Positions 1 to 55,051 of a stretch of DNA of 64,000 nt are shown one piece after another; position 1 is the first letter of the stretch; each line of letters opens with the position of its first letter. The notes beneath the pieces were generated by a model. The model searched no databases. It saw only the letters and a program-made list of their open reading frames with translations, and had not been told where the DNA came from. The DNA lies in NCBI GenBank assembly GCA_002118135.1, contig BDIU01000013.1, forward strand, positions 62,001 through 126,000. Direction: 5' to 3'. The translations under genes and the position numbers were made by a program. The DNA comes from Trebouxia sp. TZW2008. Lineage: Eukaryota; Chlorophyta; Trebouxiophyceae; Trebouxiales; Trebouxiaceae.

Positions 1-115
1 ATGATGTTGCCCAAAATGCACCACGTATAACATCATCTGTGGTTGCATGTTTGGGCAGAAGATCTTGCCTGATCTTTTCAAGTCAGCTTTGTGAGTCCTT
101 CCGTCACATGTGCAG

Positions 116-215
116 ATATTGGACGAGCCTAGACTGGGATACATCACAGACTAGCTCATGTCCCTATCAGTGTCAGCCTCAGCCCCTCCTCACCAGCAAG
201 CAGGTTCAAAAAGCC
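116..215 (+). repeat. Decayed intron copy of the Tudor exon start
   Basis: Bases 116 to about 215 repeat the start of the Tudor exon (288 onward) at an offset of 172 bp, including the preceding TGCAG acceptor and GATATTGGACGAGCCTAGAC. In the frame of the true exon the copy has a TAG where the true exon reads Gln, so it is not a productive exon. Confidence 0.85.
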
Positions 216-287
216 TTGCCCAAAACAGTTGCAATAATGTTTCTTCTGATCATGTCAACTCTGTACTCAACCCCTTTGCTTATGCAG

Positions 288-3793: not shown

Positions 3794-3999
3794 CCAGGAT
3801 TAGCTTTAGGTTTAACCATCCAAATCGGTGAGGTGTAACGCCATAGGTTAAGGTAGGAATGGCAGGTGGTGGAGGTGGTTAAGGTGCAAACCATGGCACA
3901 AGACACAGGCACAGTGCATCGCACTGCAAACGTGAGCTGACAAGCAGGAGCGCGAGCGAGGGTTATGGTCATGTGCTCGCCTGTTGAGCAAAGCGCTCG
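3794..3999. promoter_or_regulatory. CpG-rich divergent start region
   Basis: The 206 bp between the divergent ATGs at 3793 (-) and 4000 (+) and the flanking coding ends are richer in CpG than most of the window. This is inferred to be a shared promoter; I see no convincing TATA box. Confidence 0.4.
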
Positions 4000-12764: not shown

Positions 12765-15205
12765 GCCAGTCTGCTGCCTGAGGCTGTGGACAACGCTTGG
12801 TCATCATTAGGAGGCGGTCCTTCAGATCTCACATTCCCAGAGCTGTTTGCTGGAACCTGGAGAGTGCAAACCACCCTGACCAAAGTTGAAACTCCTCTAG
12901 GGCCAGACTATGTGCCAGATATGAAGGTATTAATAAATTCTGCACTGTTGCTGTTTGTAAAGGGAGCAACAGTGAATATGGCAGTCCTGTAATCTTCGTG
13001 CCACAAAAGATGGCTCTATGCGCATGAACATTGACTAATGTGCATCACAACAGCAGACCTCAGACAACAGATGTCTTTGGCCGCGCGTTGATCATCAGCT
13101 TGAGCAACTGCAAGATATTTTGCATAAGTGCTGGTGGCCGCCCTCAAGGTAGCAATCTTGGGCTGCTTTTGCTTGCAGAAGCTGCTGTTATGATGCCGCA
13201 TGGTGTAGGCTGTTCTTGTCTTGCCTACTGTGGAGATGTGCAGGTGCTTCTGCCCCACACACCTAGCAATATTTGCTAGAAAGAGTGAAGCGCTGTTGTT
13301 GTTGTTATCATGGTCCAGGTGCTGCTGCAGCAACAAGTACTGGAGGCAGTCCAGCTGACTCGTAGCAGAATTCGAGGTCGATTCAATGCCGTGCCTGTCA
13401 CATGCTGATGACTGTCTGTACACTCTGGGCCTGATTCAATTTGTTAGCCCTTGTGTCATGCTGCTGCATTGATGCAGGGTTTCAGCTCATTCTATCCTAC
13501 GCACTCCAGCTGATTTGTCACAATCAACACAATTCACAGTTGTGGGAAGAAAGTCAAGTGTGAGTCAACGACTTTACAGTGCTGCTGTGGCATACATACA
13601 ATGGAAATGCACTGCAGGTTGTAGAGCGTGCACAGAAAGAAGATCTACAGCATCCGCAGAAGTACCTTGTAAGCTTCATGCGTAACAGCCGGGGTCAAGT
13701 TGTCATAGATCGCCGCTTCAACACCTCTCAGCTGGTCGGGATGTACCTGAACAAGCCTGTGCCAGAAGACAACATAGTATGGAACCCAGACAACCCAAAC
13801 CAATTACGCATGCTAGTCCCAGGTTTGTCTGTCATGACGCTTTCTGTACTAGTATGTGTAGTGCTATGGACTGTGCATGGTTGACGAATGTTTGGTTCAC
13901 CACCTCTCAGCTAGTAGGGATGTACCTGAACAAGCCTGTGCCTGAAGACATCATAGTATGGAGTTCAGACAATCCAAACCAGTTGCGCATGCTAGCACCA
14001 AGGACCAGTCTGTCTTGCATGAGACCTCTTGTGCTATTGACTGTGCATGTTCAATAGACCGCCGCTTCAACACCTCTCAGCTAGTAGGGATGTACCTGAA
14101 CAAGCCTGTGCCTAAAGACAACATACTGTGGAACCCAGACAACCCAAACCAGTTGCTTGTGCTAGTACAAAGTTTGTCTTCCATGACGCCTCCTGTGCTG
14201 TTCTCTACACATGTGCAGTGCTATCAACCACGCATGGTCGATGAATCTGTAATGCACCATCTCTTAGCTGGTTGGCATGTACCCAAACAAGCCTGTGCCA
14301 GAAGACACCATAGTGTGGAACCCAGACAACCCAAACCAATTACGCAGGCCAGCACCAGGTCTGTCTTGCATGACACCTCCTGTGCTGTTCTCTCTACATG
14401 TGCAGTGCTGTTGACACTGCACCTCATTTTTAGCTCAGGAGTTGTAGTGCTGAGCTTCTGCCTGTGTGCTTTCAGTTGTTGCACCATGTTTAGTGAAGTT
14501 GCTGATGCCGGCATAATTCAACAATAGCGGAATCTGTTGCTCAAGCGAATCAAGATGCTTTTTGGATGCTGCTGCTAGGAAGCATGACCATCAACACGAG
14601 GGTGACGAGGCGCTCACAGGAGACTCCTGCACCAGACAAGATCAACACTTCAGAATATTTCCAACAGATCTTTGACTTTCCTGAGAAGCCCCAAGCCAAG
14701 GTTTGTCCATGAAGCAAACCCTTGAGTGCCAAGTCTGGATTGCAGCGGTTAGCTGGATGCGCCTGAGATGCAGCTTGCAATGGTGGTCACTGTATTGCTT
14801 GGCCAGCCTTCATTAATGCAGGAACTAGGCTGTGAAACATGCTATCTACACACGTTGACAAGCTGCAAAGATTGCAAGGTTGCAAAATTGCTATCACTTG
14901 CTGTTGCAAGATTTGTTTGTTGCAAAGCTGTCAGAGGTTGCACCCTTTGCATAAAAGGGCAAATTGTTTGATACGACTGACGCTCTGTGCAGGTCAAAGC
15001 CAGTCAGTGCTATACAAAATACAAGTTTAGGAGCCAGGAAGCAGCTGACAGGCAAGGGGGACCTGCCATTGTTGCTACACAAGTCATCTCAGACTATCTC
15101 ACTGCATATGACGGTGAGCTGCAAGTAATCAAGGCACAGAACAGGCCAGTGGTTGTGTACACTTACACCATGAGCTTTGTGAAGCAGCCAGGCTTTGCTG
15201 TGTGA
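12765..15205 (+). CDS. DUF6816-type plastid protein (5' exon not found)
   Basis: Exons 12765-12926 (phase 0), 13618-13822 (ends phase 1), 14579-14700 and 14993-15205 (stop TGA) join in frame. The pieces match the DUF6816 family known from cyanobacteria and chloroplasts: FAGTWRVQTTLTKVETPLG, VVERAQKEDLQHP, RGQVVIDRRFNTSQLVG, then TRVTRRSQETPAPDKI and ASQCYTKYKFR with GPAIVATQVISDYL. Members are lipocalin-like and thylakoid-associated with no known reaction. The N-terminal transit peptide exon should lie upstream, probably within 11.5-12.7 kb, but I could not fix it. Exon 13618-13822 is followed by three further partial copies of itself in the next intron. Family assignment comes from remembered family features, not a search. 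Confidence 0.8.
13899..14352 (+). repeat. Three tandem intron copies of DUF6816 exon 13618-13822
   Basis: The 3' two thirds of the exon (FNTSQLVGMYLNKPVPED onward) recurs at about 13899-13999, 14057-14170 and 14230-14352, with a period near 160-180 bp. The second of these (14057) is the closest to the true exon and includes the IDRRFNTSQ codons. The last has an extra C in ATGTACCC and is frameshifted. The true exon ends CCAG/GTTTGT; the copies end in CCAAGG, ACAAAG/GT-like and CCAGG/T variants. Confidence 0.9.
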
Positions 15206-29400: not shown

Positions 29401-32400
29401 CCACTGCCGGTCTTACTAGCTTTGGTGCTCAGTAGTTGATACTTGGCATACCGTCTACGGGCTTCAGTTCAGCATTGGATTACTGATGGTCTTCCTATCT
29501 TTCAAACTTGGTGCTCAGTAATTGATACTTGGCATACTGTCTCCAGGGTTGAAGTGAGCATCATACCACTGACGGTCTTACAAGCTTTGGTGCTCATTAG
29601 TCGATACTTGGCGTACTGTCTATTGGCTTGCGTGAAGCATTGTACTACTGATGGTCTTCCTATCTTCCTTACTTGTTGCCCAGTTTGGTTCACTCACTCT
29701 GCGCTGCAAGGCCAACAATGAGAGTGTTAAGATCTGACCTGACGTGAACAGGTGGTCTCACTGGAGGGATTGATTGTGTCATTGATCAACTGATTTACTG
29801 ACTCATTAGCAGTCGACTAACTGATTGGTAAACTGATTGACAGGTGGTCACACTGGCTTGCATACTTGGAGCTGTTCCGTTCAAAGAAGACCTTCCTGAT
29901 GAGCGTTGTTCCTTTCAACATGGAGTGGCTGGCTGAGCTGGCGCCTGTGTACCACCAAGAAAAGCTTGAGATGCTGCAGGTGCGGCTTTATCCCCTGAAA
30001 ATCTCACTCAGTTGGCTTCTGATACATATTTGCTTCACGACTAAAGATTTGTCTGTGCATCAACTGCTGTGAATGGTGACAATTTCTGTCAAGAGTCTGC
30101 AGCTGGCACTTTTATGCCGTCAAGAGGAGCTGGAAATGTTGCAGGTACAATGCCGCCCCTTGCTTTCCTGGCAGCTGACTCAGACAGTAATGTATGACTG
30201 TAAACATGCATATGCATTACTCCACCAAATTGCTCCAATTGTCTTGGGTCATAATGAGAGCCTCTTTCAGTATCTGCTGCATGCATGCAAATTGTTATAT
30301 ACTACCATACTACCATGAAACCCTGTGTCTTCTGGTCAACAGCGCATTATTGAGCAGCTGCTGCCCACCTTCTGCTGCCTGCTTTGTGTGTTATGTCTTG
30401 CGGTATAGGTGAGTAGCATTGCTGCAATCATGCTTGACACCGCAACTGAGGAGTGCATAGCACTGGTTGCACCGTGTGTACTTGAAGCATGACATGCGTT
30501 TTGCTCGGGGGATGATAGTCATTGCAAGGCTGATACATGGTCACTACATGCCACTGACTGTGCAGGAGAGAGCTGTGGATGAGCGGAAGCTGGCCAATCT
30601 GATAGGCAACTGAAAGCATCTATAGCTGTTGACTACAGACATGAGAAAGAACATGTTACCTGGTGATGACATGTTAGTGCCTGTACAGGAAAGAGCTATG
30701 GATGAGCGCAAGTTGAACAATCTCAGCTTGGCTATGATCAGCACTCTAGTGGGCAAGCAGCAAAGTCACCTTGTAGCGCTCAAGAGGCAACTGCAAGCAT
30801 CCATAGCTGTGCAGTACAGACATGAGAAAGTACATGTTACCTGGTGATTAAGCGCTAGTGCCTGTACAGGAAAGAGCTATGGATGAGCGGAAGTTGACTA
30901 ATGTCAGCTTGGCTATGATCTGCACCCTAGTGGACAGGCAACAATGCAACCTTGTGGAACTTGAAGACGCAACTGCGACCATCCATAGCTGTGAAGTATG
31001 GAAATACAACAGTGTATATCACATGCTACTGCATGTACAGGAGAGAGCTATGGATGAGCGCAAGTTGACCAATCTCAGCTTGGCTATGATCAGCACTCTG
31101 GTGGGCAAGCAGCAGTGCAACCTTGTAGCACTTGAGAGGCAACTGCAAGCATCTATAGCTGTGGACTACAGAAATGAGGTTCTCACAATTTGGGCTCTGC
31201 CAAGAGACATTGACAACGCGGTTGCCCAAATTGAGCAAATGTGTGAGTCGCACAGGTACAGTCATGCTTGACAGCACATGCGGGCTCATGTTTGCCATCA
31301 CTGCTGTACCAGCTATACAGATACAAAGCGTTGAAACTCAGATCGTCTCTTCTCATGCAGAGCAAGCTTGTGCTGTGCACACCTGGGATTTGCGCTGAGT
31401 AGCGTAAACCAAAACTGTGATGTTGCTGCTGCTGCCGCTGCTGCCATTCTTTGCACCATTGTCAGAAACAGCATCAACATTATCATCGCTACGTTTGTAC
31501 TCTTTGTACTGTTGACTTGGTCCAGCATTTGCTCGCCATTGTTACCGTACACCTGGTAATTACATTTGCACACTTAACGATGCAAGCTCCCTAAGCGTTA
31601 AGCAGAAGCAGGGCGAGCAGTTGCAGGTGCCTTATCAGCCCCAAGTTCAACATGCTCCAGGTCATCAAAAGCTGATGTGCAGTATGGCTTTGACTGCAGG
31701 ACCTTTCGCCTCAAGGAGACTTTGTAGCTGCACAAGCCCGGAGGGACAGCTTTGTTTTTCTAATTGCTGTTATCCTTGACTCTGTGATTGTGATCTGTTG
31801 TCGTAGAATGCAGTCAGAGGCGACCACATGAGCATGCTTGCAGGACTTTGCTGCTCAAGGAGACTTTGGAGGTGCACAAACTTGGAGGGACCAGGGTGCT
31901 GTACGGCACTGGTTGTGCCATCAAGCGCTTGCTGCTTGGCAAGGAGTTTGTGAGACTTAACATTGAAGGACTGCCTACATCCTTCACACAGCAGCAACTG
32001 GTGGCCAAAATTGTTGAACTCCATCCTGCTGCTGAGGTGAGTTGATTATTGTCACTATAACAATTGTATAACAAATGAGCTGCATCCGGCAAATGCTGCT
32101 GGGGTACTCAAACCTTTGTAGCAACTTGTATGCTTGGCAAAAAGTTTGTGAGACTCAACATAGAAGGGCTGCCTACGTCCTTCAGTCAGCAACAGCTGTT
32201 GTCCAAATCTGTTGAACTCCATCCTGCTGCTGAGGTCAGTCAGTGATTATGGTTACATCTTGTACACTGTATTCTTGGCAAGGAGCTTGTGAATCCTGCT
32301 GCTGAGGCGAGCAAGCCTTAATGATTGCTCATGCGCTTGCTAGTGGAACTTTTGCAGTTGTGCAGGGTCTGCTTGTGGTCATGGTGCAATTAGCCCAAGG

Positions 32401-38529: not shown

Positions 38530-41500
38530 ATGTCCCTTGGACGAGCCTCGGGCGACTCGTCAAGACAAAGCAGTATATATAACGCAAAGCGCCTGTACTT
38601 AGGTCTTGGCGGTGCGGGCTTGCTCTTTGTAGTGTGGCTTTTGAGCACACCTATCCATCAAATATACTGGGCAACGCAAGACAGCTTCTCTGACGCAAAG
38701 AACGCGGCATTTGCGTCTCGTGATCAGTCCGACGGTACGCCAAACTAGACACTGTCAACTTCAATGCCAGCCCAGCTGCAACGCACACTTGCTCGCAGCG
38801 AGAGCCTGGCCTGCAGCGATGCACGTGCAGAGCCTGACATGACCGTGCAGCCTACTGTGCAGCATTGCATTTTTCCTCAGGGCTGCAGCCACTGACTGGG
38901 CTAAGCATACTTCGTGTGCATTGCAGGGCAATATCGAACAGCTGCTGAAAGTTTTGACAAGCAGACTGGGCAGCCTCTGCAGAAGGCAGATCCAGAAGCA
39001 TCCTCACAAAGCATCTCCCTCCCTCGACTGCTCAAACACATCCAAGTCAAAGTCGCCGGCAAATTTGGGCGCGCAAATCACCAGCACTTGCCCTCTACAG
39101 AAGACAGTAGGGAGCTGCTCGACCAGCCACACCAGCAGACGTTGTCAGCTCAAGACCAGCCGGCAGTCACCACAGCCAATCATGAAACTAACATCACCAA
39201 CCACAGTCAGCAGCAAAGCACTCCCCACTCCGGCAGGCACAGCCATGACTCAGCTCAGCTGGATCTTGTGACTCATGCTGAGTCATCACCCGCACCTAAC
39301 AGCGACCTTCAAGGCGTCATAAGAGAAGCTCAGGATCTTGGCCTAGAGGCGTCTGTCATGCCTTATAACCACACAGCAACACCAAGCACAACCACCAACA
39401 CATCCATCCTCAATGCCACAGAGCCACACACTTTGAGACTGGGCAGCAAAAGCAACCTATCTGGACCCGCAGAAGTGCTCATACGGGCCGCAGGACAGTC
39501 AAGTCTTGGTGTTGGACCTCATACAGCGCATGGCAGGCAGAACGTGTCACAACAGCCCCTTTCCAGCAGCGATGCAGCAGAGCTCGAGTTTGGCCTTGAA
39601 GAATTGGACCGTGCCAGTATGCAGAGTGACGCCATTGATGATATGACGCTGTATACTGGGGAAAGCATCAATGACAATGATGATCTCTTGGTTAGACACA
39701 AGCAAACCCTTCACTCTTGACTTGTGTCCTCCTATGTTTACTGGCATTGTTCACATGCCACAAGACACACAAAAGCAATAGCTTGCTGTCACAGTGACAT
39801 TGGTCTTACTGCAAAATGTCTGGCATGCTCAAATTTGCAGTGATCTTTGCAACTGCATGCCTCCTAGAGCATGCACAGACCGTTCAAGTGCTTCAAAAGT
39901 AAGCGGTGTGCAGCTGCTTGTGCTGCACTTGCCTTGCAAGGATCCCCAGGATCATACGCACGTCTTCTGAAAGTCTTGAAGCTTGTCTGTGATGTGTGCA
40001 GCGCCCTGGCCAGCATGTACTGACTGAGGAGCAGCTCACTAGTGAGGCAGACCCTTCAAAAGTCTATACTGTAGAGCAAGCAGAGCCCTTGTCAGATGCC
40101 ATACACAGGGAAGAGGAGGTTCAAAGGGCAACTTGAAATCCTTTGCCTGATGTGTGCAGTTGCCAGGACAAGCTTTACCCGACACAGAAGTCCTTGGCGG
40201 TGAGGCGGACCCTGCAAGAGGTTACACTGTGGAGGAGTCAGTTGTGGAGGCGGCAGAGCCCATGTCAAATGCAATCCACAGGGAAGAGGAGGCTCACAGG
40301 GCAGTTGCAGCCCTTGGCGCAAAGGCCACTCATGCTGCAGCCCATAAACTCACCAAGTAACAGCTTGTGGTGACTGTTTTGGCATGTCAACTTTGCGTGA
40401 TTGCTTTTCAATGTCATTACAAGAGCCTTTATAATTGGCGACAGCCTCAAAGCTGTGGAGCATCAGCTTTACGAAAGCGCGCTGCTCACGGCATGCATAG
40501 TGCATCAAGCAGCTTGACATGCTCATTTGCCTGTCTCTGCCAAAACCCATGTGCAACTGTTTGCTCGTCGCATTTGTGCTGTTGCTTAATCTATAGCTTT
40601 GCTGTCTTGACAGCTGATGTCATGAGAACAAAGTGACATCTGTCATGATCTCCGGAGTGCAGTACTGCACAAGACAGCACATCTGAACCTAGGGCACCAC
40701 ACCATACCACACCAAACTGCAGCTACTTACTTTTGTACAGATCCAAACTGCAGTCTCATCTCCCATGCCTGGGAAGCCCAATATACTTATGTCCTTGAGC
40801 CTCACCCTTTAGTACAAGAGCTTGGTATATAGCCTTGCCGCTGATGGCATATTCATAACTACTTGGTTCAACTTTCACTACCAGGATTTCACCACGAACC
40901 GGGTCTGCCATTCAATAGCTGCATGCCTCTGTATAGGAGCTTAGTGCAAACCGTTGGCCCTGATGTGCAGGGTAACACAGTGCAGCAAGTGGAGCATGTC
41001 AAATCAGCAGCTGCATTCTTTTGTGCAGGAGTTTGGTCCAGAGCGTTGCCTCTGATAACATGGTCTTGGTCACCTGGGCCCACTACCACTACCTGAACTT
41101 GACCACAAAAAAGGTTTGTCGCATAAAACGTACCACTCCACATCACATAATATCATGATGCTTCATGACACTTTGGTGCAGGAGCTTGGTGCAGAGCGTC
41201 GCCTCTGATAACATGGTCATGGTGACTTGGGCCAACTTCCACTACTTGGATTTCACCATGAACTGGGTCCGCCATGTGCAAGCCGTCAACATCTCGTCAT
41301 ATCTGGTGGGGGCTATGGATGATGAACTGCTTGAAGCCCTTGTGGAAAGGGGCGTCAATTGCTTTGCCATGCAGAGCGGCCTCAGCACCGCAGACTTTGG
41401 TTGGGGCAGCAAGCAGTTCCACAAGATGGTAAGCTTGAATGCGAAACGCTCTTGCAAGGCTGAAACACCATTTGTCTGATTTTGCATGCAATCTATGCAT

Positions 41501-41788: not shown

Positions 41789-41822
<34 letters not shown>

Positions 41823-44800
41823 NNCCCCCCCCCCCCCCCCGGCCTGCTGCACACCCCAAGCTGCACCCCTGATTCATGATAAGGGCATATTGTTGCAAAT
41901 TACAGTTTTGAGTTTTTGCTGCAGCCCAGGCTGCGTCCCTAATCGACATTGAGGGCACATTTGGAAGGCTCCAGCTCATGGAGTCTGCATACCCCATGCT
42001 GCACCCCTGAACTGTACCAAAGGCACGCTTAGGAGCCTGCAGTTGAAGTTAGCTTGCAGTTCATGCGCTGCTACCTTCTGACCATGTCTATAGCAGCATT
42101 GTATATAGCAGAAAGTAGATGTGCTGCCCCGAACTGTCTCAAATATTGCTTGTTCCTGATGTTGCCCCTCTTTCTTTGTTAAGCTTGTTTGGGATTGCGT
42201 ACCTTTGCAGGGGCATAAGAAGACCAGGCTGGCGCTGACTTCCACAAAGATGGGCTTTGGTATTGTAGATTTGGAGCTCTTTGAGAACATGCAGCCAAAA
42301 GTGCATGCCTGATTGTTGATGAGAAGACAGTCAGAAGGCTCAAGTTGTAACCAACTTGCGATTCTGTGCTGCTGCCTCAGGGGCATCAGGAGGTTGGGTT
42401 GGTGCTGACTTTCACAGATATGGGCTCTGGAGTTGTAGCTTTGGATCTGTACAAAAGAATGCAGCAAAAGATGCATCCTTGATCCACACTGAAAGGGACA
42501 CTTTACAGGATACATTTGATATTGACTTGCAATGACATGTTGCATCCTGGATTGAGGAGCGGGCACAGGCTACTGTACACTTGAAACTGACCTGCGTGAA
42601 ATGCTGCTGCCATAGGGGCGTGAGAAGATTGGGTTGGTGCTGACCTTCACAGACATGGGCTTTGACATTGTGGTTTCAGATGTGGATACGGTTTGGCTGA
42701 AGAATCCGGTACCCTACCTGGCTCAATACCCTGAAGCTGACATCCTAGTGTCTAGTGACAGCTTGGTAGGTTGCTTCTCCCCTGCTTGAGCCCATGACTG
42801 CATTGTTGGCAATCACAGGGGAATATTGCCGCTGTGTTTGTGCTAATGAACGAGAGCCTACATGCTGCATGTTACTCTGCTGTGTTTGCTGCTGCTTGAG
42901 CCTATGACTGCATAAGCAGCAACAGAAGTGGCCGCATTGTGATGCTGCGTGCATTCTGCCTTGTATGCATCCGCATGCTGCATGCTGGAGCTGACATCCT
43001 AGTGTCCAGTGGCAGCTTGATAGGTTACTTGACCCCTTGCTTGAGCCTATGACTGCATTGATAGCAACCGCAGGAAAATTTCGCGAGTGTGTTTGCTGAC
43101 TTGCGTGAGGTTTCATGCTACATCCTGCCTAGTTGTTTCACCTATTGCTTTGGCCTATGACTGCATTCACAGCAACTCAGAAGGGCTGCAGATTCGCTAT
43201 AGTGTTTATGCTGGTTTCGATGAAATCTTCATACTGCATGTCGTTAATGTCAAGAGTTTCAGCCAAACAATTGTATCAACTTCAAAAAGCACAGCCATTA
43301 AGGGCATTGCAGCCAAAAGCAGCCTGTTGGCGTGGCCTAATAATGACCCCTGTCCACAAAGCACACGGCGTCAAAATGGTCCAAGTTGGATTTTTTTCTA
43401 CTAGACCCTGCTTGAGCTGGCAGACTTGCATATGCTAGGCTACCAGGCCTGGGATTGATGACTCACACATCAGTGAGTCATCACACCCAACCACCGGCTG
43501 ACCACTTGACAGCCAAATGTCGAGTGGTCAGCCGTTTTGATTGATAGAATGTTCTTGCAGCACGCCACCAGCACTGACGGGCCATTCGAGATGTACTCAG
43601 CTGCTGGGGTGGCCAACATCAACATCATGCTGTTCTGCTCCACACACTGTCAATTTCCTCTACTCAATTTGTCATTGGTTGCTGTGTCCATGCAGCATGC
43701 CACCACAATTGATGGGGCATTGGAGATGTATCCAGCTGCTGGAGTAGCCAACATTGGCATCATGCTGTTCTGCTCCACACACTGTCAATTTCGCCAATGA
43801 ACACATCAATATTAACAGTGGCTGGGTTGTGCTTGCAGCATGCCACTACAACTGATGGGGCATTGGAGATGTTCCCAGCTGCCGGGGTGGCCAACATCGG
43901 CATCATGCTGTTCCGCTCCACAGCCATGCAGTTTGCAGAGGTAAGCATGCACAAGGGCTGGACCTCAAGCAGCCATACCTGTATATTCTACACTGCACTT
44001 CCAGATCCAGTGTGACTTCTGCTGGAAGCATGCAACAGCTGCAGTATAAGCATGTACAAAGGCCCAGGACTAGAAGCAACCTGCCAATGCCGAAAGCACC
44101 CTGCAGACAACATCAATGTGGCAACATACTGTTCGTCTCCTCAGCCATGCATTTCGCAGGGTTGGGCATGCACAAGCATTACTCTTCCTTTAGCCTCAGT
44201 GAGTGGGTTGTTGGCAGATGCAATTCTCTGTGATCAACAATATGGTCAACAAGCACGTAACCACTCACTGACTTTGCATGCTTGTTTGCAAGAAGCAGCT
44301 CTATCTGCCTGATTTTGAAGGCACCCTGACAGGTAGACATCATACGAACGGCTTCATTCTGTCGCTGTTGGTGCAGTCAATTTATGTACAAGTCAAAGCC
44401 ATGTTTTGCAGGAATGGAATGAAGCATTACTGGCAAATGATGACTACTGGGACCAAAATGCCTTCAATGACCTGATGAATAAAGGTGCCAAGTTCGATGA
44501 TCAGCGCAGCGACCGCCTATTCATGTAAGTCCCCACACAGCCTCACATTATCTGTGCAGACTCATCGAGTACATCTTGCTTCAACGCTCAAATGCAATGC
44601 ATCTGCAGCTTTGTCTTTAACTCTCTATACGCTTGGTGACCTAGACAACGCAGCACAGTCACTACAGTTACAACAAGCATGATACGGGACAGCTGCAAGC
44701 GTCACATGCAAATGAGCACACATTGGCATCAAGGTGTTGTGCATTGATGTTGACATGGCATCAAGAAGTTGTGAATTGATATGTGACATGTATTTCAATT

Positions 44801-47800
44801 GGACATTTGCGCCGGGACAGGGGCTTTGATGGCAATATGAAGACAAACGTCCTGCTTGCTGTGCCACATCCTGCTTGCTGTGCCACATCCTGCTTGCTGT
44901 GCCTATAGCTGCATTGCAGCAGAACTGCCGCAAAACTGCATGCCGAACTGAATAGATGGGATGATGAGCCCTTGCTCTAACCAGGAGGATTGCTTTGTGA
45001 CTTGTTATGTGCATCATGACATAGGCTTTCATGGTAGATTGCGGATGGGCGACTTGGCAGTGTCCACATTCTGCAGTGGAAACACCTGCTTTATACAGCG
45101 CATGGCAAATACACTACACCTTTGAGCATAAAACCATACGCTCGCCATTGAGCATTGGCAAAGATGCTGTTCACCAATCATTGTTTTTGCGTCATGACAG
45201 GGGCTTTCATGGGAGACTGAAGATGGGCATCTTGCCAGTGTCTACCTTCTGCAGTGGGCACACCTTCTTCATACAGCGCATGGCAGACACCCTGGGTCTG
45301 GAACCTTATGTCGTCCATGCCACGTTCCAGTTCTCAGGCACTCCAGGCAAGCGCCACCGCATGAGAGAGAGCCAGTTGTGGGTCATGGTAAGCCTCAGCA
45401 CTCAGCGACATTCTGTGTGTTGTGACAGACTGCATCATCCCTGAAAAACATTGGCAATCTATGCTGTCCATGCCGTAATCCAGTTCTCAGGCACTTCAGG
45501 CAAGCAACACCGCATGAGAGAGAGCCGGTTGTGGGTCATGGTAAGCCGCAGAACTCAGCTCACTTGCTTTGGCGTGCTATCCTCTCAACCTTTCCAAAGA
45601 CTGTTTGAGAGACGCTTTTCTTTAGTACACACAACGCATTTAGCGGCATCGCTCATTGATGTTGCCTGCTATTGCTTGCAGAATGTGTTGTCGGGCTCTG
45701 TCCAACCAGTTGCAGTCGGAAGTCGCAAGTAACAGTGGAAGTGCAGACCTGCATTTGCAGCAGCGGTCAATGACCAACAGATGCAAGCGCGTCTCACTGT
45801 GAAGCTTATGCTGGATGCAGCCTTATGTCACAGCAAACTCAAGGAGTTGTGATTCAACAAAGACAGCTCGCACTGCTCTCAGAGCCTCTCAAACGCCCAG
45901 TTCAATCAACACCTGTGCAGCAGCAGTCAATAGTGCTCCTTGGCCCCAGGTCATGCAATTAGCAGCACTCAGCAGAGGTCGCATTGCATGAGATTGCTTT
46001 GCTTTGTGTGGCCCAGAGGAGCACTTCAGACCGCCTGGTGGTTTCCTCACCTTTGACCTACAACTGCGTGACCTGGTGCAACATTCAGCATCTCGTCAGT
46101 AAGTGATGCACAGCATAGTCAGATTGCTCTGCAGGACTCAGAAGAGTAATTCAGGCCGCCTGGTGGTCTCTTGACCCTTGATCTACACTTGCATGACCTG
46201 GTACAGCATTCAATGCTGCATCAACAGCTGATGCACAGCATCAATACCATATGCTTTGCAGGACCCAGAAGAGTGTTTCGGGCCGCCTAGTGGTTTTGTT
46301 CACCTTTGATCTGCACCTGCACGATTTGTGCAGCACTCAGCGCCAAATCAGAAATCAATGGACAGAAGTTGCTCTGCTTTGCAGGACTCAGAAGAGTACT
46401 TCAGGCCGCCTGGTAGCTTGCTGACCTTTGACCTACACCTGCACGACCTGGTACCGGACGCCACGCCAAATCAGCAACTGATGCATTAGGCAATTTATTG
46501 CAACATCAGCACACGAGTCAACACAGTTGCTTAGCCCCAAGCGCTTCTATGTAAGGCCTTCACCAGGCCACCTGCATTGCAATTCATGTGCCAAAGTGAC
46601 ATGAACTGACTTTGCCAAACTGACATGAACTGACTTTACTTTGCAGGACCCAGAGGAGTACTACAGGCCGCCTGGTGGTTTGCTCACCTTTGACCTGCAC
46701 CTGCACGATCTGGTACAGCATTCAGCGCCAAATCAGCAACTGATGCACAGCGTTGACAGCGGCCTGCAGCGAAACAACCTCAAGCTAGATGACAACAAAG
46801 CTGGCCACTTTGAACTGGCCAATGCACAGATACAGCAGGTCAGTCTGCTGTGCCGTGCGTTTTGTGTTTTGAGTGCATGAGGAACTGCTGCACAACATTG
46901 ACAGTGGCATGCAGCACAAGAACCTTCCATTTGGATGACAACAAAGCTGGCCACTTTCACTTGGCCGATGCCCAGATACAGCAGGTTTCGTCTGCTGTGC
47001 AATGCGATTCGTGCTTGCGAGCATGAGGAACTGATGCACAGCATTGACAGCGGCATGCAGTACAAAGTTTAAGTTGACATATATGACAACAAAGCTGGCC
47101 ATTTTGAGCTGGCCAATGCCCAGATACAACAGGTCAGTTGACAAGAAGCGCCAACTTTGAAGCAGTGTATCACATGGCTTAGAAAGTCAGCTGCACAGTG
47201 CTCGCTGTGAATGCTTTCTCACAGTGTGATGCTTGGCAGAGTGCTGAATAGCGTCACAGTGTAGTGCATGGCAGAGTACATCATAGCGCGGCTACTCTGA
47301 AATCAACAGAGCTTGTTTGGTCAAACTCAAGGCAAGTTATGCTGCAGGTGAGGGCAGCAATGGCTGTGGCCACAGCCCTGAACCGCACATTGGTGATGCC
47401 ACAGCTGTGGTGCGGCATGGACCGGTGGTGGGCGCCGCATGATGGCAACATTCCTGGATCCTCCCTGCAGCTACCTTTCAAATGCCCCATGGACCACATC
47501 TTTGACCTGGAACAGTAAGCTCATGAACAGCCCATCATCCAACCTGCACCATGCCAACTGTTTTGCGATGACCTTGTGCCGTCAGCATTGCTCTGTGAGC
47601 TGAGCAGGGCCCTGCAACAATGTGAGAGTACCGGTTCTTGATCTGCATGGTTGATGATGTTTTGTGGCAGGTCTAAAGGTTGACACAGCGGCTCACACAG
47701 GCTATGCTGCCTGAAGTCACCCTGCCCCTATGCAATGGCAAGGACACTAGGCTGCTTTGTCAATGCAAGCAAGTGCAGAAATTTCTGCAGTTCAGATACT

Positions 47801-50470
47801 TTGTGGCCTGAGCAGCATACATGTGCAGCAGTCAGCTGTTGTACTGCAGCTCATCTGTAGAGCCCTTCCAAAAGATGCTGCAAGCATAGCCTGCATGAGC
47901 TGATTGGCTGTTAATGCCTGGTGCTCCAGGAGGCAATCTTGCATTTGACTGCATTGTCTTGTTAGGTACCAGGGACAATCTGAGCAACACAGATTTGTGT
48001 GCTGGTTGAAACACTGCACATAAACATGCATGTCCTTGGTCAGCTCGCTTTTGCTGCTGCAGATCAGATCGCCATGCAGAAGACGCGCTTGGCCCTCACA
48101 TAGACTGCAGGGAATACTCTTTGCTGAACTACACTCGAGACCAAACTCCTTTTGCCTGTTTGTTCATTTCGGACAATCCTGCTAGCAGGTTGACTCCTAG
48201 GCAGATGTAACACAAACAGCATGCATGGTCTAGTCAAGCCGACTTGTGCTGATGCAGAATGATCAAACACCATCCAGAAGAAGCCCTTGGTCCCCACATT
48301 GACCAAAGGGAGCACTCTCTGCTGACCAACAACAAAAGACTGAAGGCCCTTGACTGTTTTGACTGTTGGGACAACCCTGCCAGCTGTGAAAGTGCTAGGC
48401 AGACCCAGAAGATACAGCATGCACGGCGTACGTCAGCTTGCTTGTGCTGCTGCAAAATGATCAAGCATGCGCTTGGGCCTTGCAAAGACTAGAGGGAGCA
48501 CTCTCTGCTGAGCGACTCCCAAAGCCCAACTCCCTTTGACTGCTTCACAAGACACTTTCTCAAGTTTCAAGTGCTTGGCGGACTTGGAACAGCCAACATG
48601 CATGGCCTGGATCAGCTCGTCTGTGCTGCTGCAGAATGATTCAGCACCGTCCAGAAGATGCCCTTGGCCCCCACATTGACTGGCGGGAGCACTCTCTGCT
48701 GAACAATACCCAAATGCCGCCAGAGGACATCGCTAGCACTGCCCACATACACATCTGCCAGGCAAGTGCGCAGGGTTGTACTGCTTACGTACCAGCTGAG
48801 CTGCTGATGAATGCCCAAATGTTGCCACAGGACATTGCCAGCACTGCCCACAAACACACCTTCCAGACAAGTGTGCAGCTAGCTACTGCTTACATACATC
48901 GCTGCAATGCTGATGCACCATTAGTAACCTGCAAGGTGATTGGTTGACGTTGCCATGCTCATCAATGAAGCAGCAGTGAGGCAACGGCACTGGAGAGACA
49001 GCTGTTTGACCAATGCAGCATCAGCACACAGTACACTTCAACACTTGATGATCAACAGTAAAACACATTGTGCGTTGTGTCAGGGCTGTGATAGGGCCTG
49101 CTAAGGCAACCATTGCCTGTGCTCGCAGGCAGGCAGACGAGGCAAGCTGCATTGATGGCATGAGGTTATGCTAGGTCATGCGCTAGGGCATGATGTGGCA
49201 CCCACAGCTTTGGTTGTGAATGCAGGAAACAAGGCAAGGTGCAGTGATGGCATGGGGTTATGCTAGGTCATGTGCTAGGGCATTTTTTGGCACCCACAGC
49301 TTTGGTTGTGTATGCAGGAAAAGAGGCAAGTTGCAGTGATGGCATGGGGTCATGCTAGGTCATGTGCTAGGGCGTGTTATGGCCACAGCTTTGGATGTGT
49401 ACGCAGGAAACTTGGCAGGCTGCACTGATGGCATGAGAATGTGCTAGGTCGTGCGCTAGGGCTCTATAAGGCACCCATAGCTTGCTTGTGCATGCAGGAA
49501 GATGAGGCAGGCTGCAGTGCTGGCAGCACGCCTGCTGTAGTTGGTGGCAGCAGTACAGTTGTTGGCTTGCAAGCCAACTTGACTGATCAGCAGCTCCGCA
49601 TAGCGTTGTCAGTAAGTGCTGACCTTGCACCAGCAATTCATGACCTTGTTTGCAATCTACAAACGGATGATTGCATCCCGCAAACCATCAACATCAATCT
49701 TGCCTGGCATTCTGTGATATGAAGCAATGAGCAGAATGTTCTGCCATTTCTGCAATGCGTCATCTTGCATATGCTGCTCCAGGTACGAGCATTTGTGGGT
49801 AGACTTTTGTCGCTCAAAAGCCTGACCTCAGCTTTGTACCTTGCATTGAATACAGCTTCAGAAGTCTAGCTAGGTTCCCTGTATCCCTTTGGGGTGAAGG
49901 GGGAACCTTTCTGTATCCTTTAATCTCCTTGTAAAAAGGAGCACACAAAGCTGCAGCATTCTTTTTGGGCTCAGACATTATGCAACATTACATACTTTGT
50001 TATGACAAGACAAGGTCTGGCTTGTGCAGGGCTTGAAGGACACAGCAATTGTGCACTTTGACACAATGCAGGGCGCATTTGGTGGTCATGCTAGCCATGG
50101 GGATGCCAGCAGGTACACACTTGCTCACTCCTGCTGCTTCCAAGCCTGAACAATCTGCTCTGTAGAAAATGTGCTGCAAATGCTGATTTTTTCTTAACGA
50201 AGGTTGGAGCCAATGTGGCACCAGTCATTTGGCAGTTGGCAATGGTATGGACTGCATCAGAAAATGTGGTGTGTTTGTTTCGAGCCTGCAACCAATATTG
50301 GCAATGTTGGCAGGTTTCAGCGGCGCACTGAGATACACACAAGCCTTTGGTGCTGTGTGGATGCCCACCCAGGTCATGTTTGGTACGACATGTGGTGGGA
50401 CCAGATACCGCATGAGGATAGGCATAAGCGCCAAATCAGCACAGCATGGAAACCAAGCACTGGCCCATGA
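38530..50470 (+). CDS. XEG113-like arabinosyltransferase (nucleotide-diphospho-sugar transferase family), about 934 aa
   Basis: Exons: 38530-38734, 38927-39690, 40160-40356, 41182-41428, 42616-42765, 43839-43940, 44412-44524, 45201-45387, 46647-46838, 47348-47514, 48635-48761, 49498-49611, 50030-50112, 50314-50470. All phases agree. Residues about 22-42 form a type II membrane anchor (YLGLGGAGLLFVVWLL), then a long disordered stem to about 390. The catalytic domain follows: VTWANFHYLDFTMNWVRH, VGAMDDELLEAL, the DxD site SDVDTVWLKNPVPYL, YWDQNAFNDL, ILPVSTFCSGHTFFIQ, LNRTLVMPQLWCGMDRWW and CPMDHIFDLEQ. This matches plant XEG113, a Golgi enzyme that arabinosylates hydroxyproline-rich glycoproteins. 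Donor 48762 is GC (CAG/GCAAGT). At least nine of its introns contain partial copies of neighbouring exons, making it 12 kb long. Identity by remembered family motifs; high confidence in family. Confidence 0.9.
40002..40136 (+). repeat. Upstream copy of XEG113-like exon 40160
   Basis: After GTGCAG the copy is open for 44 codons and matches the true exon (YTVEQAEPLSDAIHREEE compared with YTVEESVVEAAEPMSNAIHR), then runs into TGA. Acceptor intact. Confidence 0.85.
40817..41115 (+). repeat. Two to three upstream copies of XEG113-like exon 41182 start
   Basis: A decayed copy lies at about 40817-40910 (AACTTTCACTACCAGGATTT), a short fragment at about 40937-40970 (GGAGCTTAGTGCAAACCGTT) and a good copy at about 41028-41115 (SDNMVLVTWAHYHYLNLTTK in frame). 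The true exon starts at 41182. Confidence 0.85.
41790..41840. repeat. Poly-C tract with two N
   Basis: Thirty-three C, two N (41823-41824), then sixteen C, inside an intron of the XEG113-like gene. The true length is unknown; the N bases show the assembly did not resolve it. Confidence 0.95.
42211..42450 (+). repeat. Two decayed upstream copies of XEG113-like exon 42616
   Basis: Starting after CTTTGCAG (42211) and CCTCAG (42381), both resemble the exon start (GGGCGTGAGAAGATTGGGTT). The second is closer (VGLVLTFTDMGSGVVALD). Neither retains the DxD codons. Confidence 0.85.
42985..43022 (+). repeat. Downstream fragment of XEG113-like exon 42616-42765 end
   Basis: GAGCTGACATCCTAGTGTCC, then AGTGGCAGCTTG, repeats the exon end, but the donor GTAGGT has become ATAGGT. 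Confidence 0.8.
43458..43534. other. Two adjacent hairpins in an XEG113-like intron
   Basis: GATGACTCAC, six bases, GTGAGTCATC forms a perfect 10-bp stem. It is followed at 43495-43534 by CGGCTGACCACTTGAC, eight bases, GTCGAGTGGTCAGCCG, a 16-bp stem with one T/G position. Both lie just upstream of the first duplicate of exon 6. Confidence 0.75.
43561..43796 (+). repeat. Two upstream copies of XEG113-like exon 43839-43940
   Basis: Copies after TTGCAG at 43561 and after ATGCAG at 43696 match the true exon (HATTTDGALEMFPAAGVANI) with HATSTDGPFEMYSAAGVANI and HATTIDGALEMYPAAGVANI. Both acceptors and frames are intact through IMLF. Spacing 135 and 143 bp. A decayed fragment also lies at about 44110-44165. 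Confidence 0.95.
44819..45125 (+). repeat. Upstream copies of XEG113-like exon 45201
   Basis: A fragment at about 44819 (GGGCTTTGATGGCAATATGA) and a longer copy at about 45029-45125 (GCTTTCATGGTAGATTGCGG, then TTCTGCAGTGGAAACACC). Between them GTGCCACATCCTGCTTGCT is tandemly repeated near 44860. Confidence 0.8.
45459..45540 (+). repeat. Downstream copy of XEG113-like exon 45201-45387 end
   Basis: YAVHAVIQFSGTSGKQHRMR compared with YVVHATFQFSGTPGKRHRMR, followed by an intact ATG/GTAAGC donor. Confidence 0.9.
46012..46470 (+). repeat. Four upstream copies of XEG113-like exon 46647 start
   Basis: Copies start at about 46012, 46135, 46262 and 46385, three of them after TTTGCAG or CTGCAG, and match the true exon start DPEEYYRPPGGLLTFDLHLH. 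The second has TAA and the third is frameshifted; the fourth is closest to intact. Spacing about 123-127 bp. Confidence 0.95.
46885..47132 (+). repeat. Two downstream copies of XEG113-like exon 46647-46838 end
   Basis: Both contain GATGACAACAAAGCTGGCCA and end CAGCAG/GTTTCG (46984) and CAACAG/GTCAGT (47132). The same exon therefore has copies of its start upstream and of its end downstream. Confidence 0.95.
48063..48861 (+). repeat. Copies of XEG113-like exon 48635-48761
   Basis: Upstream copies start at 48063, 48257 and about 48456; the 48257 copy is the best (HPEEALGPHIDQREHSLL compared with RPEDALGPHIDWREHSLL). Downstream, about 48786-48861 repeats the exon end, with its donor CAG/ACAAGT in place of CAG/GCAAGT. 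Confidence 0.9.
49128..49497 (+). repeat. 90-bp tandem array of intron plus exon start (XEG113-like exon 49498)
   Basis: Units begin after GCAG at about 49136, 49226, 49318, 49407 and the true exon 49498, a period of 89-92 bp. Each has GGCAAG-like exon-start sequence, ATGCTAGGTCATG, and TTTGG-TGTG before the next GCAG. Only the last leads into an open exon. Confidence 0.95.
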
Positions 50471-51311
50471 TTCATGATAGCAAAATGAATTTGGATACAG
50501 AATTGTGAGGTACAGAATTGATTGCCTGGAGTCGTGGTATGCAGCAGTGAAAGTGGATTGTGAAGCAGTGGGCTGTTTATAAACTTCGCACAACCCCAGG
50601 TGCAGTGTTTGAAACGTTCACATCAATTTGATGTCATTTTGCTGGTTCGATGCCAGCATCTGTGTAGCTACCCGTGTCTTACACTGAAGACTCCAATCTT
50701 TTATAGCTTTAATCAACATGAGTAGTGGCTTCCCATGCTCACAGCATGCATCTATCCATGGTGACAGGATGCAGCATGCCAAGCGCGACAAGCTTGTGTT
50801 AACGGTAGAGGTGCGATCTCGACATGAACTCACAGAATCCTTGATGCCCCCTCTGTAAGCGAGGAAGAAGTGTGGACCGGGAGGTAGACTTCGTGCAGAG
50901 TGACCTGGCAATCGACACTTGAGCCCGACCGGCTTCCCAGCAAACGCCCAAGGGTTCTGGCTTCAGCTCCAGTTGCTTCAAATTGCCGGTTGCTGCTTCC
51001 GAGGCATTCGCGCTGTGTTGTAGCTAGCACAACGATACGCAACTGATCTCGGTCAACGTCGGTCAGCGAGTGTGCACAGCCGCTTTGCATTTCGTCGTTG
51101 TGGCCGAAGCGTGTTGATAGCTTTTTCGGAAATACCTATCATGTTAGCCTGTTTCCCAACGTCGGTTGCACATCAGTCTGCGCAAAGGCCTTGCCACTCT
51201 GCCATTTGTCTGTGAGCGCAGCAGACTGAGCTCAAGGTGCGTTGACCCGAGGACTGCCTGGTCGCCCGTCCTGCCCGAACGACTTTGAGACATAGATGTC
51301 ACGCAGGTTTC
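50471..51311. other. Intergenic region with possible minus-strand exon and CpG-rich start
   Basis: It holds the XEG113-like 3' UTR and a CpG-rich block about 50770-51300 ahead of the AUX1-like ATG. A minus-strand ORF 51090-50830 starts with ATG and is protein-like (DRDQLRIVVLATTQRECLG), with a GTGAGT donor-like site near its end; it may be the first exon of a small divergent gene, not confirmed. Confidence 0.4.
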
Positions 51312-54300
51312 ATGGTGGAGCTGCTCGGGATGCAGCGCGTCAACGAGCGTGGCTATGCACCTTTCGAAGATGCCTCAGTACATGCTGAGGAGGAGGCTGC
51401 GTTACCTATCAGCATTCCCGCACAGGAGTTACGGCACTTGACAGCAAACGGCAGCCCAGAGACAACATCGTCGCTGATTGCAGAGGCAAAGTCCTCAGTC
51501 CTCAGCACAGTCACACACTTTGTCTGGCAAGGAGGTTCTCCTGGAGATGCCTGGTTGCATATGACAGCGGCACAGGTGAGCATAAGTTGCATGCATTGCA
51601 TGGCAGATGCTTTCAGCTGTCGTGCTGCAACTGATGCTTCTGCCTTCAGCTTCTAGTCAACCTCTGCTACATGTGCTGATGATATGGAGTTTGCAACATC
51701 AGTGTCTGCATGCACAGCTTTCATGCGAGGCGATGTAAGCCGCTTAGCTGCCACTTGCAGACCACATAGGCATTTGCGCAACTAAAAGTCACCTCAAGAA
51801 CCATTTTTGACACGGCACATGGTTTGCTGTTCTGCTTGCATCCTATACATTTCTCAACCGTATGACAACAGCTGGTTAGCTGTAATCAGGTTGGACAAGT
51901 GATCCTGACCCTGCCATATACCATGGCTCAGACAGGAATGCTATTTGGCATTCTGCTTCAGCTGGGTTATGCAATCATGGCAACTTGGACAGCGTATCTG
52001 ATGAACACCCTGTACATGGAGTATGTCAACAGGCAGGAGAGATCCAAGGCGCTGTCCACTCAGCCAGTGCACCCTTCTGACAAGTAAGTGATGCCAAACC
52101 TGTGAAGCAGCTTCTCCGCTTTGTTGGGCATGTTGCTGGCTATCAGGTGGACAGCCTGTATGTGGAGTATGCGAACTGACAGTAGTGGTCCAAGGCGCTG
52201 TCAACTCAGCCAGTACACCCTCAAGACAAGTATTGCTCGTCGACACTCCACATGTCATCTGGACTATTCATTGCAAACGCATGCTGGGCAAGCTCAGCAG
52301 GCCCAGCTAGGTACATGCTGGAGCAATCCACTGTCTCCAACCAGTTCAGTCCTGTGCTTGTCCTCCACATGTAACATGCCAGTAAAGCTTTTTCAAGGGT
52401 GGGATTGTGCGTGTTGCAAGCGCAGCATGCGTTGAGTCACAGCGCGCACTTCTGCCCGTTGTATCATCCATTGCATTTGCAAATGACCTCAAGGTCTTGC
52501 CAACTTACCATCTTCAGTCCAATGTTCAGGTCAGCCCTGGACGGCCCGTGACATAGTTCTGCATCAACCCAACCAGAAGCTTGGTTCTAGTTGCTGATTA
52601 GATTAATTTCCATGTGCTGCTGCTATGCTGGCAGCATTATTTGTACAAAGCCAGTACTGTTGAGTGAGTTGTCATCTTCACGCCTCAAGCTGCGTGTAGG
52701 GACCACATCATTCAATACCACGAGGTTATTGGTGGCTTGGTGGGTCCTTGGGGTGAGACTGCAGCCCTCTTCTTCAACGTGGTTTCCCTGCTGGGCTTGG
52801 CTGTGGTCCAGATCATTGCCTGTGCCAGTGACGCCTACTATCTGTATGACGCCCTCAATAAGAGGTGACATTGAGTGATCTTATCATTGTTTGTTTGTTT
52901 GATTTTTTGTTTTGCCAAAAGCAAGCTAAGCAAGCTCTGTTCAGTAGATCAACGTGAAGACATGCGTGTATTGGACAGCGTTGAAATGCACCAAGCTGCA
53001 TAGATATTGCATATGTAAAGGGCCTGTGCCAGTTTCATCACAAGCTGTTAGTGTCTCATACAAAACCTCACTGTATTGGCCTAGCTGTTCTCACGAGTGC
53101 CTGCAGTCAAGCAGTAGAAGTAGCCAAAATTGTCATTCAGAGACTGGCAGCAGAAGACGCTGAGCACACTGATTGCAGCTGTCCCTATCAGCTCAAGCAT
53201 TGCAGCATTCCACAAAATTGATTAGCTCGTGCATTTGAGGAAGCACCACTTCACACCTAAGAGCTCAGCCGCCTAACATTGGCAAGAATGCTTTGCAATA
53301 TGTTGCTGCATGTTCAATGGAGGACATCGGCCATTGTGTGGGGCAGAGTGTCTCTGTTCACAGTGCTGCTACCTTCCTTCCAAAAATAACGTGCATTCTC
53401 TTTCCTTGGGCTGATAGCCACCACCTTTACAGCCTGGTACATGATGGGCACAGCAGTGCATGACAAGCAATATGGTTTAATAGGCATTGCAGGACAGGGA
53501 AAAGTGTGTGCGGAGTAGTGTCTCTGCACAGGGGCTGCAGCCTTCTAGAACTACGATGCAAGCAGCACAAACCACCAGACAGTCTGGCAGCAGATGCCAC
53601 CAACTGCATTGCACAGTGGTGCATTTCAAATGTCTGAGGTGTGATCTCACATGCCATGCAGGACTTGGGCGATTGTGTGGGGCATAGTATCTCTGTTCAC
53701 AGTGCTGCTACCCTCCTTCCAAAACTACCGTGCATTCTCTTTCCTTGGGCTGATAGCCACCACCTTTACAGCCTGGTACATGATGGGCACAGCAGTGCAT
53801 GAGGGACAGGCGCCTGGGGTCAGGCATTCTGGCCCCCTTGACCCCCAGCAGTTCTTCACGGGTGCTACCAACATACTATTCACCTTTGGGGGCCATGCAA
53901 TGTCTGTGTAAGCCCTCTGCCCTATGCTTTACTGCTGCGTTTGACTGCTGCCTGTGACTGTCGGGCTCCATACACCCTGGCGCAAGCCCTCGGTTTTGGA
54001 CTTTCTGCTGTGTGTGACTGCTGTGCGTAATTGCTGTACATAGTTGCTGTCTGTGACAGATACAGCATGCAGGAAATGACTCACCTGGCTGCGCTTGGAG
54101 TCTTGTGCACATCCGGACTTGACAGCATAGTGCATGCGTATGGGTTTGCTTTAGACCTATTGCGTTCTGTCTCTTTGCCGCAAGTCTGCATTGCCCAGCT
54201 GCTTGGCATGAGCTGTTGCCATGAGCTTGAAGGAAATGCACACCTCTTGTTTCACAGGCATGTACCATAGCTGCGCATTGCTGCTGCACCGCACGTGCTG

Positions 54301-55051
54301 AAGTGATTGGGCCTGGACAGCATTGCTTTGTGACTTGTTGCTTGAATCTGAGCAGTGATGAATACGCAACCAGGTGATTGATTGATGTTGCTGTGCGTGC
54401 AGGGAGGTCATGCACGCCATGAGTAAACCAGGAAAGTTCAGTGTAGTGTACCTGTTGAGCTCAATGTACGTTTTTACACTCACCCTGCCAAATACTATAT
54501 CTGTCTATTGGGCGCATGGAGATACCCTATTGACACACACAAATGCTCTCAGTGTTCTGCCAGCTTCACCATTAAGAAGTACAGCAGTGATTTTGATGAT
54601 CGCTCATCAGTGCGTTGCTTTTGGGCTGTTCATCACTCCCTTATATTTTGTCTGGGAGAAGTTGATTGGCACTCACCATGCCAAGTACAGAACGAAGGTG
54701 TTGTCACGTGTGCCAGTTGTCCTGCTTGTGTGGTTGCTTGCTACTGCTTTTCCTTTTTTTGGCCCAGTCAATTCCCTGCTGGGCGCTTTCACCACGACTT
54801 TCTCTACATATCTGGTCCCCTGTGTCGCCTTTAATTCGACTTACTTTAGCAAAAGTGCGCAAGATAGTGCTGTCAGGGGCCCGCCTAGATGGGTCCCTGC
54901 CTGGTCTGCGGTTTTTGCTGTTAATGTTTTTGTGTTTGTTTGGGCAGCTGTGCTTGGGGTAGGCTTTGGGGGCTGGGCTAGTGTCAAGGAAGTCGTACGT
55001 CAAGTTGACACCTTTGGACTGTTTGATCCATGCTATCAATGTTATTCATGA
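51312..55051 (+). CDS. AUX1/LAX-type auxin influx carrier, about 505 aa
   Basis: Exons 51312-51575, 51890-52083, 52700-52864, 53662-53907 and 54403-55051 (stop TGA) join with matching phases. The product follows plant AUX1/LAX from end to end: FVWQGGSPGDAWLH, VILTLPYTMAQTGMLFGILL, TWTAYLMNTLYMEY, IIACASDAYYLYDALNKR, TWAIVWGIVSLFTVLLPSFQ, FTGATNILFTFGGHAMSVEV, MHAMSKPGKF, LPNTISVYWAHGD, TPLYFVWEKLIG, FPFFGPVNSLLGAF and GFGGWASVKEVVRQVDTFGL. AUX1/LAX proteins are proton symporters of the amino acid/auxin permease family in the plasma membrane that import indole-3-acetic acid. Length is close to plant AUX1 (about 485 aa). The N-terminus before FVWQGG is longer and unlike plants. Introns hold decayed copies of exons 2 and 4. 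Whether the alga uses it for auxin or another substrate is not shown. Confidence 0.93.
52150..52229 (+). repeat. Decayed downstream copy of AUX1-like exon 2 end
   Basis: CCTGTATGTGGAGTATGCGA then TGA, AAGGCGCTGTCAACTCAGCC, ending AAGACAA/GTATTG, repeats the end of exon 51890-52083. In-frame TGA present; donor GT kept. Confidence 0.9.
53321..53558 (+). repeat. Decayed upstream copies of AUX1-like exon 4
   Basis: About 145 bp (53321-53465) is nearly identical to the first part of exon 53662-53907 but reads CAAAAATAACG where the true exon has CAAAACTACCG, giving TAA in frame. A second, shorter and more decayed fragment lies at about 53508-53558. Confidence 0.92.

Follow-up and report, generated by a model that had tools for sequence, protein, structure and literature searches.

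Partial exon copies beside their own exons in introns of the green alga Trebouxia sp. TZW2008

Introduction

How do introns come to hold partial copies of the exons beside them, and why do these copies keep to one side of the exon they resemble? The question is raised by a stretch of 64,000 nucleotides from the green alga Trebouxia sp. TZW2008 (assembly GCA_002118135.1; 68.5 Mb, 527 contigs), which comprises bases 62,001-126,000 of contig 13 (BDIU01000013.1; 690,608 bases) and is referred to here as the window. An earlier note on this DNA reported that several genes carry copies of exon starts, with the acceptor, upstream of the complete exon and copies of exon ends, with the donor, downstream, and attributed them to tandem duplication across exon-intron junctions. 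The explanation favored in this study, at a probability of roughly 0.65, is that short tandem duplications arose locally, passed a filter of selection, and left copies that later decayed.

Results

Polarity of exon-edge copies

A set of 30 exons and 26 introns in four genes was curated from homology and splice-site reading. The homology-supported genes of this set were all among those named in the earlier note, so the choice of genes was not blind; the junction-by-junction test covered these four (DUF6816, DEAH-RBR, XEG113-like, and AUX1-like), with neither the coiled-coil gene nor the last gene named there among them. The introns flanking the 30 exons held 45 copy matches, comprising 24 with an acceptor, 19 with a donor, and two fragments, which by our own reading represent 44 distinct copies, one being split in two. 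Acceptor-bearing matches lay upstream of the exon in 24 of 24 cases and donor-bearing matches downstream in 19 of 19, and both fragments lay upstream. The partial copies described earlier were thereby confirmed in four of the named genes, and all 43 junction-containing copies were direct and obeyed the strict polarity.

The curated genes have 52 internal junctions, of which 21 are matched by copies; with the acceptor of exon 1 of the XEG113-like gene the number is 22. Some units form arrays of 3-7, counting the exon. None of the 45 matches was a whole exon with both splice sites, and none was of the AGGT kind, i.e., the start of the downstream exon without its acceptor at the 5' end of the intron. 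Among 15 copies sorted by hand as lying outside regular arrays, polarity was kept in 15. For seven of these, the mirror position would have been intronic too, so that they could have sat on the other side of the exon, yet did not, as a tandem origin predicts. The 43 junction copies are direct, nearby, and include a splice junction, as is characteristic of intron growth or gain by tandem genomic duplication. An age gradient from the exon to the distal copy was also considered, from identities taken by eye, but about half of the arrays ran each way and it was not used.

The polarity was checked blindly on 194 exons called in 17 stretches outside the window. These calls came from our own gene finder, unsupervised, which merges genes and sometimes takes copies for exons. 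Matches with one junction showed the expected polarity in 73 of 78 cases; acceptor matches were split 41 to 2 in favor of the upstream side, and donor matches 32 to 3 in favor of the downstream side. Further matches included 12 with both junctions (putative whole-exon matches at unsupervised exons) and 25 internal ones. Predicted whole exons stand head to tail at L002:6189-6446 and L008:525-790, which may be true tandem exon duplications or protein repeats.

Census of local direct repeats

Comparison of the window with itself gave 56 matches, all 56 direct and none inverted, at offsets of 79-677 bp; the count depends on search settings and was 62 in a sensitive run. The sensitive run covered the window and 17 other nuclear stretches (216,451 bases) and yielded 191 near direct pairs, one far direct pair, and four inverted pairs, each a palindrome, while one dinucleotide shuffle per stretch of the same 216,451 bases yielded none. 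Four more stretches brought the sample to 256,451 nuclear bases, with 230 direct pairs less than 1 kb apart, two farther apart, and four inverted (palindromes). The 21 stretches beyond the window comprised two flanking it on contig 13 and 19 on 19 further contigs, after a short search hit (L001) and a plastid stretch (L015) had been excluded. At least one near direct pair occurred in 18 of the 21. By this measure, and by the polarity in 17 of these stretches, the genes named earlier are not exceptional.

The offset of the 99 primary pairs had a median of 153 bp, quartiles of 124 and 181 bp, and a 10th-90th percentile range of 95-217 bp. Identity lay between 75 and 90% in 70 of the 99. The short range and direct orientation of the pairs are those of small tandem duplications arising from break repair. 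None of the 4,912 copy bases matched any other sampled stretch, and two arrays searched genome-wide matched only their own locus among the best candidates scored. On the stretches sampled and these two arrays, dispersed repeats or introners were rejected as the source of the copies.

Contribution to intron length

The earlier note held that the copies would explain the large introns, and a contribution to intron length is supported. Copies were present in 16 of 26 curated introns and made up 4,912 of 19,426 intron bases (25%) in the four genes, and introns with copies had a median length of 797 bp vs. 457 bp for those without (P = 0.03).

Proposed origin of the copies

Short local direct duplications, mostly of 90-220 bp, would have arisen across much of the nuclear genome. 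Where such a duplication spans one splice junction, the complete exon would remain as long as its own junction stays in use, and the duplication could survive; duplications inside exons or covering a whole exon would mostly be lost. The surplus edge would then lie upstream if it bears the acceptor and downstream if it bears the donor, and would decay nearly neutrally as intron sequence. Some units may have been amplified into arrays, and repeated rounds would lengthen introns. At the DNA level, break repair with fill-in or replication slippage, followed by unequal exchange, may have been involved. The locality, orientation, size, and polarity of the duplications, their occurrence on other contigs, their excess at exon edges, and the near-neutral decay are observed; the selective filter, this DNA step, and the tandem origin of pairs that now have a spacer are what we infer. 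Several findings weigh against the proposal and are given below, each with the rival explanation that it bears on.

Clean tandems and spaced pairs

Alignment extended over 90% or more of the offset in 38 of the 99 primary pairs. The other 61 are separated by an unaligned spacer, and similarity was absent from both 40-bp flanks in 50 of them. Simulated tandems kept flank similarity in 96-100% of cases at t of 0.06-0.18. The 40-bp test can miss similarity if a short spacer is split to both sides, and was rerun for spacers of at least 80 bp, where a tandem must leave one side fully similar; a similar flank was found in only 5 of 24. For spacers of at least 30 bp the count was 9 of 51, and for pairs at least 86% identical it was 3 of 19 (spacer at least 30 bp) and 2 of 12 (at least 80 bp); one pair beside an N gap was omitted from these counts, including that for 80 bp. 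Of the copies outside arrays, moreover, the exonic part exceeded the intronic part in 13 of 14.

The spaced pairs may instead stem from break repair that duplicated the flanks around filler, or be old tandems that were renewed through gene conversion with the exon as template. We regard this as possible, at somewhat below even odds. The missing flank similarity favors it, as does mosaicism within pairs, detected at P < 0.05 in 9 of 83 pairs vs. 4.2 expected, and a perfect run of 74 bases in a pair of the AUX1-like gene. Clean tandems, on the other hand, are commoner among the non-coding pairs (19 of 31 vs. 19 of 68; spaced pairs make up 12 of 31 non-coding and 49 of 68 coding ones, Fisher P = 0.003), polarity holds where filler would not force it, and the single spacer that was searched in the genome gave no second match. 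As a general cause of the spaced pairs, gene conversion is a weak candidate. The spaced pairs fit a tandem origin with later turnover of what was left of the intronic part, as they fit conversion from the exon or filler at the repair joint; none of these is proven. Of the original claim, that tandem duplication across the junction produced the copies, the local, junction-spanning, and polar character stood, while a simple tandem explains only part of the pairs.

Placement at exon edges

Junction-spanning arrays numbered 22 of 25 in the curated genes, an excess beyond what a filter alone would give. With units of the observed lengths placed at random, 31% (present gene structure) or 40% (copies removed) would span a junction, and simulated detection favored junction copies only 1.3-fold over a uniform age range, leaving the excess at P of 2e-5 or less. 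When one pair per array was shifted locally, 19 of 22 spanned a junction in the curated genes vs. 9.9 +- 2.1 expected (arrays are grouped differently in the two tests, hence 25 and 22), and 47 of 77 on other contigs vs. 31.1 +- 3.8, at P = 0.002, the floor of 500 shifts. A previous form of the shift test gave 44 of 64 vs. 28.6 +- 3.6 outside the window.

These results argue for duplication targeted to exon-intron junctions, perhaps through transcription-linked nicks or exon-positioned nucleosomes, the unit being about the size of a nucleosome. However, the older the copies, the more detection favors those at junctions (in simulation 0.63 vs. 0.16 at t = 0.21), so that a burst of old events could mimic the excess. 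The exon calls outside the window may include copies, the curated genes had been named in advance, and the offsets are widely spread. Targeting is considered rather unlikely. The excess at exon edges is about 1.5-1.9 fold, and detection bias together with the gene finder can explain part of it. Two observations go beyond the earlier note: exon edges are spanned by duplications at a higher rate than chance positions would give, and most pairs are not clean tandems. A broader proposal, that a mutation process in this nuclear genome favors the duplication of pieces of about nucleosome size where exons and introns meet and that introns grow largely from their own exon edges, with older, unrecognizable copies perhaps making up much of the rest, is only tentatively put forward and is doubtful at present.

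Decay or function of the copies

The mismatch between copy and exon was 0.131, 0.104, and 0.228 at codon positions 1, 2, and 3, respectively, and the intronic part had 0.203. If the copy is neutral and the exon constrained, positions 1 and 2 are expected to diverge about half as much as position 3, which the observed values fit. The 15 non-array copies showed 0.124, 0.122, and 0.203 with four stops in 353 codons, and the 30 array matches 0.134, 0.097, and 0.240 with four stops in 799 codons. Exon indels occurred in 13 of 45 matches, and the copies' stops and exon indels together were within or slightly below neutral expectation. In the curated genes, the copies showed neither the complete exon with both splice sites nor, overall, the conserved reading frame that marks mutually exclusive or duplicated exons.

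Divergence between copies was nevertheless position-biased as well (0.205, 0.146, and 0.298), with a ratio of 0.59 (interval 0.53-0.78; 12 arrays). This could mean constraint on the copies, but is read here as copying from a constrained exon at different times. Stops were slightly few, with 8 in 1,152 codons vs. a simulated neutral mean of 10.5-13.9 (P from 0.26 to 0.05 over the rates tried). The AG was intact in 21 of 24 acceptor copies vs. 16.4 expected from flank identity (P = 0.03), a retention that may be biased upward by alignments ending close to the junction. The donor GT or GC was intact in 13 of 19 copies vs. 13.1 expected (P = 0.63).

A function of the copies as alternative or mutually exclusive parts of exons, maintained by purifying selection, would account for the third-position bias between copies, the intact AGs, and the open frame kept in some of them. 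One such case, at window positions 26613-27025, is an array of three units, the exon and its two copies, which recur every 114 bp (38 codons) in a single open frame and might be translated throughout as a protein repeat. This explanation is nonetheless improbable: whole-exon copies with both splice sites are absent from the 45 matches, indels and eight in-frame stops occur, with one of the stops in the most similar copy (94%), and divergence at the second position, 0.104 over all copies and 0.122 in those outside arrays, comes close to that of a neutral copy branch. Constraint as the main cause of copy survival was rejected on codon-position divergence and stops, the contrary signs notwithstanding. 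The idea of a constant stock of alternative splice sites appears unsupported as it was worded, since apart from the AGs the splice sites and the remaining sequence of the copies seem to drift almost neutrally. Judged from their sequence, the copies are probably mostly dead, which is not to say that none is used.

Age and assembly

Identity of at least 92% was reached in only 7 of 99 primary pairs, one of which adjoins a 114-N gap at L005:6018-6131. A constant birth rate would make young pairs at least as numerous as old ones; their scarcity implies either that the process has slowed or that the assembly has lost young copies. The gap is flanked on both sides by identical 41-base sequences and is likely an assembly scar, which suggests that scaffolding could collapse young copies and favors the second option for some cases at least. 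The earlier description of a continuing process is thus not borne out as it stood, although young copies may have been collapsed. That the copies themselves are an assembly artefact is very improbable: the gap shows that the assembly struggles with some repeats, but most pairs are only 75-90% identical and their decay tracks codon structure.

Copies in the genes of the window

All features listed here lie on the + strand. Domain matches were PF00567 for the Tudor-domain gene, PF20670 for the DUF6816 gene, and PF01490 for the AUX1-like gene. These genes of the window have homologues in plants and green algae; those of the DEAH helicase gene carry RBR-type domains, and those of the XEG113-like glycosyltransferase gene include its best matches, in Coccomyxa. 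Two groups of copies come from self-matches and stand outside the 45: in the Tudor-domain gene (111-400), an acceptor copy at 111-228 lies upstream of the exon edge at 283-400, and in the XEG113-like gene, acceptor copies at 40804-41105 precede exon 1 (41182-41428). The copies that follow were located by intron search.

The complete exon of the DUF6816 gene (13618-13822), identified by its splice sites and PF20670, is followed by three donor copies at 13896-14386. In the DEAH-RBR gene, exon 3 (23846-24203; homology and splice sites, donor GTATGC) is followed by a donor-copy array of six matches with a period of about 155 at 24259-25063. Exon 4 (25330-25611) has an acceptor copy at 25132-25247, exon 5 (25945-26122) two donor copies at 26249-26465, and exon 6 (26874-27025) two acceptor copies with a period of 114 at 26613-26857. 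An acceptor-copy array with a period of 181 occupies 30546-31005 before exon 10 (31041-31242), and exon 11 (31844-32036) has an acceptor copy at 31695-31747 and a donor copy at 32131-32256.

The XEG113-like gene carries copies on both sides of several exons. Exon 2 (42616-42765) has two upstream copies at 42209-42429, one match beginning at the acceptor, and a donor copy at 42985-43095. Two acceptor copies and one donor copy accompany exon 3 (43839-43940; copies at 43550-43779 and 44120-44176) and likewise exon 5 (45201-45387; copies at 44806-45115 and 45460-45559). Exon 6 (46647-46838) is preceded by four acceptor copies with a period of 125 (45997-46485) and followed by two donor copies with a period of 145 (46877-47138). 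Three acceptor copies with a period of 195 (48023-48523) and a donor copy (48801-48915) flank exon 8 (48635-48761), and four acceptor copies with a period of 92 (49102-49433) precede exon 9 (49498-49611). In the AUX1-like gene, a donor copy at 52141-52232 follows the exon ending at 52083, and the acceptor copy of exon 53662-53907 at 53317-53463 is the 94% identical one with a stop.

Other repeats and frames

A dispersed repeat of about 190 bp at window positions 28800-28980 resembles a miniature inverted-repeat transposable element, with inverted ends GTACAGTGA ... TTTACTGTAC. A first look at the genome gave 743 candidates, and the 40 of these 743 that were scored included both strands. The start of the repeat is the GT donor of DEAH intron 8, which the element may have supplied. 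Another DEAH intron holds an imperfect 265-bp palindrome at 27120-27385, matching its own reverse complement at 70.5%. The plastid stretch (L015, contig C17) contains a plastid-type RNA polymerase beta'' (rpoC2) frame that runs without a stop over its full 3,333 codons; with green-algal matches of 1,854 to 4,062 residues it is long, yet paralleled.

Discussion

In a potato RdRp gene, a tandem duplication is described that takes in the 3' part of an intron together with the beginning of the exon after it, so that the acceptor is inherited (Ma, Lan and Niu 2016, PMC4974935). The Trebouxia copies are alike in being junction-spanning duplications that carry the acceptor. However, the potato case is a single event, in which the copy became part of the spliced mRNA and gave a new intron, whereas the alga has tens of copies in 64 kb, observed at the DNA level, and similar pairs on most other contigs sampled. 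End joining after fill-in, as studied in mouse and human cells, yields small tandem duplications (Schimmel et al. 2021, PMC8355091) that are likewise short, local, and direct. They are described there as short insertions of less than 100 bp, whereas the algal duplications have the larger offset reported above, are old and amplified, and often have unrelated spacers.

In Chlamydomonas and Volvox, also green algae, tandem repeats are found preferentially in introns, and there close to the ends (PMC3887541), a distribution similar to that of the copies; the repeats treated there are short motifs, while the Trebouxia copies are derived from exons. Introners, in which copies of one element are inserted into many genes (PMC9860276), also represent a process that alters the introns of many genes, but the Trebouxia copies are local, and similar copies at unlinked loci were not found in the stretches sampled or, for two arrays, among the best candidates in the genome. 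In the main text of the Asterochloris genome paper (PMC6652019), the terms 'tandem' and 'duplicated exon' are absent. A literature search that lacked most subscription papers, and is no proof of absence, found no earlier report of exon-edge copies littering introns. Single junction-spanning duplications and small tandem duplications from break repair are already known, and novelty is claimed with reserve. The features that stand out are how many copies there are, that all four genes show the polarity, and that exon edges are hit in excess, with a density known from this one genome.

For gene prediction the copies are a warning, as exon-like copies may be called exons, which happened with our own gene finder. 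For the biology of the alga, they represent a natural series of junction-spanning duplications of varied age in one genome, in which the lengthening of introns, the bypass of decoy acceptors and donors by the spliceosome, and the rate at which such duplications lead to new exons or introns could be measured.

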